43,120 nt of DNA from an uncultured Opitutia bacterium (lineage in GTDB: Bacteria > Verrucomicrobiota > Verrucomicrobiia > Opitutales > UBA953), in assembly GCA_903889525.1 (NCBI GenBank), contig CAISXT010000063.1, forward strand, positions 1 through 43,120, given 5' to 3'. The position numbers and the translations under genes were made by a program. Below are positions 18,254 to 20,125 of this stretch, one piece after another. The notes under the pieces were generated by a model. That model saw only the letters and a program-made list of their open reading frames with translations, was not told the origin of the DNA and made no database searches. The stretch's first letter is position 1. Each line of letters starts with the position of its first letter.

Positions 18254-18282
18254 TTGCGCAAGCGCAACTTATGCTTATCAAT
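18254..18282 (+). promoter_or_regulatory. Promoter-like sequence with palindrome before the tandem-RHH gene
   Basis: TTGCGC (18254-18259) is followed after 16 bases by TATCAA (18276-18281). The -35 hexamer is half of an inverted repeat TTGCGC-AA-GCGCAA (18254-18267). A palindrome over the -35 box could be an operator for the downstream DNA-binding protein. The hexamers are only fair matches. Confidence 0.4.
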
Positions 18283-18304
18283 CTTACTAAGAGTTAACCG
18301 CAAC

Positions 18305-18700
18305 GTGACGAACCGAACCGAAACCCCGAGCGAAAGTCTCATCACCGTGTCGCTTCCCCCGAAGCTCCACTCTGAAGCAGTCGCCTTTCAGCATCGGTCC
18401 GGATTCAGCACCTTGAGCGAAGTGATTCGTCACGCGCTCGATCGTTTCGATGACTCTCGTCCTTCCCTGGAGACCACTCGGTCGCGCCAGGTTTCTTTCC
18501 GCGTACCGTCGGAGCTCCGTACTCGTATCACCCGCCAGGCGCGTAACGCCCGGGTGAGCGTGGGGCGAATCGTCAGGGTGGCGCTTCAGGCGTTGCCCTC
18601 AAACCCAACAACGATCCAAAAAAAGGACACAACTATGGCTAAAAAGAAGGCTGCTGCTAAGAAGAGCGCCAAGAAGGCCACCAAAGCTAAGAAGAAGTAA
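18305..18700 (+). CDS. Tandem ribbon-helix-helix-like DNA-binding protein with Lys/Ala tail
   Basis: The 131-residue product, from a GTG start, shows two similar units. Unit 1 (about 11-48) reads LITVSLPPKLHSEA..FSTLSEVIRHALDRF. Unit 2 (about 61-98) reads RQVSFRVPSELRTRI..VSVGRIVRVALQAL. Each has a polar beta strand, then two helices, as in Arc/MetJ-type RHH repressors, which normally dimerise. Residues 111-131 (MAKKKAAAKKSAKKATKAKKK split by function) form a Lys/Ala tail like histone H1-type tails. A strong ribosome-binding site and ATG lie inside the gene before that tail. The longer frame reaching back to 17906 overlaps the metal ATPase antisense and is rejected. The function as a regulator or nucleoid protein is inferred. 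Confidence 0.75.
   Translation: MTNRTETPSESLITVSLPPKLHSEAVAFQHRSGFSTLSEVIRHALDRFDDSRPSLETTRSRQVSFRVPSELRTRITRQARNARVSVGRIVRVALQALPSNPTTIQKKDTTMAKKKAAAKKSAKKATKAKKK
18621..18700 (+). CDS. Possible separately translated 21-residue Lys/Ala peptide
   Basis: AAAAGGA (18621-18627) lies seven bases before an ATG at 18635, the best Shine-Dalgarno arrangement seen near any start in this window. The frame is the same as the tandem-RHH gene, so the peptide equals its last 21 residues: ten or more lysines with alanines and nothing else of note. It could be made on its own as a small basic nucleic-acid-binding peptide, or the site may be accidental. Confidence 0.45.
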
Positions 18701-18758
18701 TTCTTCCTAGTCTTTTCCGTCCCTCGGGGCGGATGGCGCCGGCACCCCCGGTTATAAC

Positions 18759-18791
18759 AAGGACCCTCGCAAGGGGGTCCTTTTCTTTTTT
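18759..18791 (+). terminator. Intrinsic terminator after the tandem-RHH gene
   Basis: AAGGACCC (18759-18766) pairs with GGGTCCTT (18775-18782), followed by TTCTTTTTT. It separates this gene from icd. Confidence 0.85.
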
Positions 18792-18871: not shown

Positions 18872-20125
18872 ATGAGCACCCCTGCATCCGGACGTATCAC
18901 TATCGCTAACGGCAAACTGACTGTCCCCGATCATCCGGTGGTTCCCTTTATCGAGGGCGACGGCACCGGCCCTGATATCTGGCGCGCCTCCGTTCGGGTT
19001 ATCGATGCCGCGGTCGCCAAGGCTTACGCTGGTAAGCGCAAAATCGAGTGGCTTGAAGTCCTCGCCGGCGAAAAGTCCTTCAAGCAGACGGGCGACTGGC
19101 TGCCGGAAGCAACCTTGACCGCTTTCCGCGACTACCTCGTGGGCATCAAGGGTCCGCTCACCACTCCCACCGGTGGCGGTATCCGCTCGCTTAATGTCGC
19201 CCTGCGTCAGCAGCTCGATCTCTACGTCTGCCTCCGTCCCGTGCAGTGGTTCATCGGGGTGCCTTCGCCCGTGAAGCATCCCGGTAAGGTCGACATGGTT
19301 ATTTTCCGCGAGAACACCGAAGACATCTACGCCGGGATCGACTTCGAGGCGGGGTCCGAAGTTGCGTTGAAGACGCTCGACTTTATCAAGACCAACTTCC
19401 CGAAGGAGTTTAAGAAAATCCGTTTCGGGGCTGAGCAGCCAGAGACCGTGGGCTTGGGCATCAAGCCGGTCTCTCGCCCGGGTTCGGAGCGCCTGATCCG
19501 CTCCGCTCTCCAGTACGCCATCGCGAACAAGCGTAAGTCGCTCACCCTCGTCCATAAGGGTAATATCATGAAATACACCGAGGGGGCGTTCATGAAGTGG
19601 GGCTACGATCTCGCCAAGAGCGAGTTCGGTGCCGAGGAAATCGACGGTGGGCCTTGGTGCAAGATTCCGGAAGGCAAGCCTGGTGCGGGCCTCATCATCA
19701 AGGACGCCATCGCGGACATCACCCTGCAGCAAATCCTGACGCGCCCGACCGATTTCGATGTCATCGCCACCCTTAATCTCAACGGCGATTACCTCTCCGA
19801 TGCCCTGGCGGCGCAGGTGGGCGGCATCGGGATCGCCCCTGGCGGCAACATCAATTACCTGACCGGTCACGCGATCTTCGAAGCGACCCACGGCACGGCG
19901 CCGAAGTATGCTAACAAGGATGTCGTCAACCCGGGTTCGGTCGTTCTCTCCGGCGAGATGATGCTCCGCTACATGGGTTGGATTGAGGCTGCGGATCTCG
20001 TGCTGAAGGGTCTCAATGGTGCCATTGGCGGCGGCCGCGTGACCTACGATTTCGCACGCCAGATGCAGGGTGCGACGGAGATCAAGTGCTCTGAGTTTGG
20101 CGACGCGATCATCGCGTCGATGTAA
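18872..20125 (+). CDS. icd: NADP-dependent isocitrate dehydrogenase
   Basis: The 417-residue product matches the homodimeric E. coli-type Icd. [13 protein letters not shown] carries the isocitrate-binding serine that AceK phosphorylates in enterics. [11 protein letters not shown] and [13 protein letters not shown] are active-site motifs. [17 protein letters not shown] holds the Lys-Tyr pair that gives NADP preference. It makes 2-oxoglutarate in the TCA cycle, which also feeds the glutamate needed by the proline and arginine genes here. No aceK is in the window. A hairpin terminator follows. Confidence 0.97.

Follow-up and report, generated by a model that had tools for sequence, protein, structure and literature searches.

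The locus and its flanks

The window (the whole stretch of 43,120 nucleotides analysed here, from an uncultured Opitutia bacterium) carries at positions 18305-18700 an open reading frame encoding a protein of 131 aa, with a GTG start codon at 18305 and a stop codon at 18698-18700. In the genus, a group of uncultured Opitutales known from metagenome assemblies, 40 distinct full-length sequences share this GTG, the frame and the architecture. Upstream, on the opposite strand, lies a P-type ATPase gene; downstream, an isocitrate dehydrogenase gene is recognized by the match of 18872-20125 to Pfam Iso_dh. The features discussed below, among them two ribbon-helix-helix (RHH) units, are the following.

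18254..18281, forward strand: promoter-like element TTGCGC-N16-TATCAA, overlapping a palindrome (18254-18267) pointed out in an earlier note on this DNA
18305..18700, forward strand: gene of the two-RHH protein with a Lys/Ala tail; GTG and frame kept in the genus, family found across Opitutales
18335..18448, forward strand: RHH unit 1 (residues 11-48; predicted strand 10-17, helices 19-32 and 37-47), assigned from an AlphaFold2 model, a weak CopG/NikR profile match and homology to unit 2
18485..18589, forward strand: RHH unit 2 (residues 61-95; predicted strand 61-68, helices 69-81 and 86-95), assigned from Pfam RHH_1 and the near-invariant Q62, S64 and R66
18563..18634, forward strand: codons 87-110, nearly devoid of synonymous variation (permutation test), directly before an internal ATG
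18575..18599, forward strand: conserved RNA hairpin AGGGTGGCGCTTCAGGCGTTGCCCT inside that segment (RNAalifold)
18623..18627, forward strand: a Shine-Dalgarno-like motif, AAGGA, 7 nt upstream of the internal ATG, in 12 of the 13 genus loci tallied
18635..18697, forward strand: Lys/Ala tail, residues 111-131, MAKKKAAAKKSAKKATKAKKK, also a putative internally started peptide of 21 aa; Met111 in 40/40 genus sequences, in a start-like context
18716..18733, forward strand: hairpin of the 3'UTR, TCCGTCCCTCGGGGCGGA, conserved in the genus
18759..18782, forward strand: intrinsic terminator AAGGACCCTCGCAAGGGGGTCCTT followed by a T-rich run, conserved, separating the gene from that of isocitrate dehydrogenase

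A strict sigma-70 consensus match was not found at the promoter-like element 18254..18281. CTTGCGC with a 16-nt spacing to TA is present in 43/43 relatives, 44-46 nt upstream of the GTG, and this is the pattern expected of a promoter. The palindrome that overlaps it had been put forward as an operator, an idea that does not hold up since the full palindrome occurs in just 3 of the 43 relatives. The last 15 nt or so of the leader together with codons 1-9 (AGAGTTAACCGCAACGTGACGAACCGAACCGAAACC; 18290-18331) are nearly invariant, contain AACCG repeats, and are possibly a start region or an operator. The 3'UTR (18701-18790) is also strongly conserved in the genus; it holds the terminator and two hairpins, that at 18716-18733 and a variable one, and a few of its pairs show pairing-preserving changes. 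Given its own promoter-like element upstream and a conserved terminator downstream, the two-RHH gene appears to be monocistronic.

This protein is a member of an unnamed family that is typical of the order Opitutales and single-copy in most genomes. A single-sequence search retrieved relatives from 199/373 Opitutales genomes, corresponding to 58/100 genera. In a profile search of genomes of 90% completeness or more, drawn from across the phylum, 33 of the 39 listed Opitutales genomes were positive, 32 of these 33 with one copy, and the family was found in none of the roughly 200 genomes of the draw from outside the order. The locus is adjoined by icd in families f1, f20 and f21 and by other recurrent neighbours elsewhere; such recurrence speaks for vertical inheritance. 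A SecG gene is found near the two-RHH gene in some loci, and a flanking ORF family, a fragment of which has no Pfam match, recurs near it in about 70 loci of other families. Evolution of the gene is very uneven between genera; in genus g22, which belongs to the same family, the RHH core is strongly diverged and the tails are richer in Pro.

Two homologous units in one chain

The earlier note had described two similar strand-helix-helix units in this 131-residue chain, and profile comparison bears this out. Profiles of residues 11-50 and 58-98, derived from 25 sequences no two of which were more than 85% alike, were aligned to each other by hhalign with a probability of 91.6, an E-value of 8e-7 and a score of 29.0; the best score of 200 column-shuffled controls was 17.4, so that 0/200 did as well. 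As judged from these profiles, the two units are homologous. Assignment to the RHH fold is more direct for unit 2. In the full 131 aa, Pfam RHH_1 (PF01402) matches residues 63-96 with an E-value of 0.001 and 19.3 bits, just below the curated cut-off of 20.5, and with the 93-aa core alone the score rises to 21.1 bits, above it. The same Pfam family is matched by 17/17 members of a diverse alignment, the best relatives reaching an E-value of 9e-13 and some of them showing two matched stretches. Unit 1 alone had no match in the Pfam scan of the window's own sequence, and the family profile over this unit matches CopG, NikR and ParD weakly (E 0.02-0.2). Thus, the expectation that each half should match RHH profiles held for unit 2 and for members of the family but not for unit 1 taken alone, which is detectable only via relatives and profiles. 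Of the three outcomes that the earlier note listed as refuting its idea, this is the only one encountered, and only in part, so that the described anatomy largely stands.

Both units are retained by the homologues from families sampled across the order, in line with what had been anticipated. Outside the genus, Q62, S64 and R66 are found in 131, 131 and 133 of 133 loci, respectively, and position 14 is T or S in 126 of them. In Arc, the strand residues Gln9, Asn11 and Arg13 read DNA bases, and they correspond to the ribbon residues Q62, S64 and R66. The near invariance of the latter therefore indicates that the DNA-reading face is conserved.

An AlphaFold2 model computed from an alignment of close relatives only gives the strand-helix-helix order twice, with the boundaries listed above, and a disordered tail. 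Confidence in this model is moderate: pLDDT is about 80 in both units, the mean is 68 and no residue exceeds 90. Its top structural match is a chain of the F-plasmid relaxosome (9f10_E; Z 11.1 over 94 residues, 2.7 Å, 12% identity). The F-relaxosome chains superpose on model residues 9-103 with 10-12% identity, far above the unrelated rows, and were identified as TraY since the paper on the relaxosome describes three TraY molecules (PMC12117103). Next come an engineered single-chain Arc (1u9p, Z 7.7), then DndE, AvtR, MJ0366 (Z 6.1) and VirC2 (Z 4.4). A Foldseek search with the model returned no match below an E-value of 0.001, so that the fold assignment rests on its probability-1.00 rows and on the structural Z-scores. 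Within these bounds, the model and its superposition on TraY and Arc agree with the N-terminal strand that had been predicted for each unit, and suggest that the two strands pair ahead of the helices as in RHH proteins.

The two homologous units lie in one polypeptide, which is what defines a single-chain duplicated RHH protein. The formation of the whole ribbon by one chain is supported here, but it is known in nature. F TraY is a monomer in which one polypeptide holds the entire RHH-dimer fold (PMC12117103), and VirC2 and MJ0366 have been described as duplicated RHH proteins (PMC2848546). With these natural cases, the single-chain plan is not unprecedented; the novelty that had been suggested goes too far as regards the two units in one chain, a plan already represented by TraY, VirC2, MJ0366 and the engineered Arc 1u9p.

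A variable basic tail and a conserved internal ATG

The Lys/Ala tail recognized in the earlier note is real, and it is not a fixed part of the family. Among 146 loci, 100 have a longer basic tail of 22 to about 250 aa, mostly Lys and Ala, and the other 46 have just 3-21 residues past the domain, mostly basic. The tail is thus a variable addition, dispensable for the conserved core function. Its first part after the Met residue at the junction with the domain contains 48% Lys and 26% Ala, Ala and Pro together making up 33%; this is a low-complexity basic segment rich in Lys, Ala and Pro, as in histone-H1-like proteins. Curated families do not include it: long-tail members match no H1-like family of Pfam, and they reach 17.7-20.9 bits with the NCBIfam model hist_H1_lk_Burk, the cut-off of which is 80. 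No separate Lys/Ala gene was detected nearby in the 46 short-tail loci, the sole match being the RHH protein itself. Searching the genome with Lys/Ala sequence alone was uninformative, as a known tail was missed. A -1 frameshift at the slippery A-AAA-AAG before the tail was considered and rejected: this species has the motif, whereas AAATAAG or AAACTAAG stands in its place in relatives.

Two characters of the region had escaped the earlier note, the conserved internal ATG (18635) and, ahead of it, the strong constraint on nucleotides. Of the 100 long-tail loci, 70 have a tail that opens with the junction Met; they represent at least eight families, although they are not independent of each other. 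In 65/71 cases it is followed by Ala or Pro, despite the 48% Lys found downstream, and the linker that precedes it has diverged between families. Within the genus, the synonymous difference over codons 87-110 is 0.060 against 0.255 expected (ratio 0.23; 0/20000 permutations as low), and it is exactly 0 over codons 101-110. Elsewhere in the gene, the ratio is 0.36 for codons 2-10, 1.42 for codons 11-59 and 1.01 for the tail, which keeps pace with the gene as a whole. The same constraint before the Met, although weaker, is observed in family f11 (ratio 0.68, p 0.01).

The AAGGA motif is notable in this position because the genome hardly uses Shine-Dalgarno motifs. In 229 kb of the genome (the window and 20 further contigs), such a motif precedes 5.7% of 87 confident ATG starts, compared with 11% of 839 internal ATGs. 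In the related genus g25, an AGG-type core is present in 7/8 junction-Met loci, with varying encoded residues (NKD, TED, SKE, PERSK); in g23, g22, f11, f20 and others, no AAGGA precedes the junction Met. The anti-Shine-Dalgarno sequence GGATCACCTCCT was found in 6/8 genomes of the order that were searched and in neither of the two from the genus, and the search of genus assemblies for the 3' end of 16S rRNA found no 16S. With a start model built from the genome's own genes, the ATG at 18635 outscores 62% of starts and 98.3% of internal ATGs. It is also within the most open 2.3% of internal ATGs and has an A-rich context, as at real starts. The hairpin 18575..18599 keeps its pairs in almost all of 18 sequences, with almost no covariation in RNAalifold, and since the pairs are almost invariant, covariation offers no proof of it. 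The fold of the whole region is not clearly better than that of shuffled sequences (z -0.80), and nothing near the gathering score was found in Rfam.

Taken together, these data leave internal initiation at 18635 in the genus at about even odds. Nucleotide constraint is by itself no proof of translation initiation, and it could reflect another RNA or DNA element, such as an mRNA processing signal, a hairpin or a binding site, Met111 being an inherited linker residue and the 131-aa protein alone being made. We give this alternative a chance only a little short of one in two. It would account for a constraint that begins about 70 nt upstream, includes the hairpin and stops at the ATG, the codons past which are free to vary; it also fits the several genera that have the Met and lack the Shine-Dalgarno-like motif, as well as the scarcity of such motifs at real genes of the genome. 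On the other hand, it does not readily explain why a Met followed by Ala or Pro persists in many families while the linker diverges, why g25 keeps the AGG-type core though the encoded residues differ, or why the A-rich, open context resembles that of real starts. The conserved internal start is in any case a new and testable point.

A candidate nucleoid protein of Opitutales

The best overall explanation, which we hold to be as probable as its contrary, is that Opitutales possess a DNA-binding protein of the nucleoid-associated type, accompanied in the genus by an internally started H1-like peptide. As in F TraY, the two RHH units of one chain would pack together to form one complete RHH domain, and the two-stranded ribbon (T14 and S16 of unit 1, Q62, S64 and R66 of unit 2) would enter the major groove of DNA. 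The Lys/Ala tail may add sequence-independent, charge-driven binding and compaction, as bacterial histone-H1-like proteins do, and the role would be architectural rather than limited to a single operon. Ribosomes of the genus, and possibly those of many relatives, may also start at the internal ATG, in the same frame, thereby releasing a free 21-aa H1-like peptide besides the full protein. One frame would then yield two chromatin proteins, the RHH reader with its H1-like tail and the tail alone, in a ratio set at translation by the Shine-Dalgarno-like site; we regard this last proposal as tentative, slightly on the doubtful side of an even bet. The two homologous units, their predicted fold, the conservation, the tail and the nucleotide constraint are results of computation, whereas DNA binding, architectural role and internal initiation are all inferred. 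HU is also encoded, in 2 copies, so that the RHH protein is not the sole candidate nucleoid protein.

The serious rival to an architectural role is that of a dedicated repressor, sequence-specific and acting perhaps on its own gene or on a small regulon, the basic tail just raising affinity. RHH proteins are most often repressors, the almost invariant ribbon residues would also fit a sequence-specific regulator, and the strong conservation that runs from the promoter-like element through codon 10, with its low synonymous ratio in codons 2-10, could be that of an operator. However, inheritance is order-wide and mostly single-copy without a fixed partner gene, neighbours vary between families (icd, the SecG gene, the recurrent flanking ORF family), the proposed palindrome is not conserved, and tails of up to about 250 aa are hard to explain in this way. 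We consider a repressor the less probable of the two, if well worth keeping in mind. A conjugation-accessory function like that of TraY, suggested by the best fold match, is largely refuted by the genomic setting, the gene occurring throughout the order next to housekeeping genes such as icd, and with an identity of 10-12% and no TraY family match in Pfam and NCBIfam scans it is highly improbable.

If the architectural reading is correct, one bacterial order has its own chromosome organiser, built from a natural single-chain RHH reader with an H1-like tail attached. If the tail has its own start, this would be a straightforward example of a single gene giving two DNA binders, one of them targeted and the other untargeted. 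The junction Met, together with the differing lengths of the tail, would, moreover, provide a natural series for asking what the tail does. To our knowledge, no bacterial histone-H1-like protein has an RHH domain, and our literature search found no papers joining RHH domains with H1-like tails or dealing with nucleoid proteins of Opitutales.

Several known systems share one part or another of this plan. CdbA of Myxococcus xanthus, an RHH nucleoid-associated protein that binds more than 500 chromosomal sites and is important for nucleoid organisation, provides a precedent for an RHH nucleoid protein; it differs in having one RHH unit per chain, in being a tetramer and in binding c-di-GMP, and no Lys/Ala tail is described in the parts of the paper drawn upon here (PMC7156744). 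F TraY shares the two RHH units per chain that form an RHH-dimer fold (PDB 9f10, PMC12117103), but it is a plasmid conjugation protein with little sequence identity, and the sections of its description used here make no mention of a Lys/Ala tail. VirC2 and MJ0366 also have a duplicated RHH in a single chain, theirs being knotted; their fold match is lower, and a Lys/Ala tail does not figure in the portions of the source that we cite (PMC2848546). As for the tail, Chlamydia Hc2 (PMC2848022) and Pseudomonas AlgP (PMC9239181), both bacterial histone-H1-like proteins, have a similar lysine-rich, repetitive basic segment, and the length of Hc2 varies too, whereas the tails of the present family match no curated H1-like family. 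As a whole, the predicted combination of a folded domain and a basic tail is roughly comparable to a linker histone.
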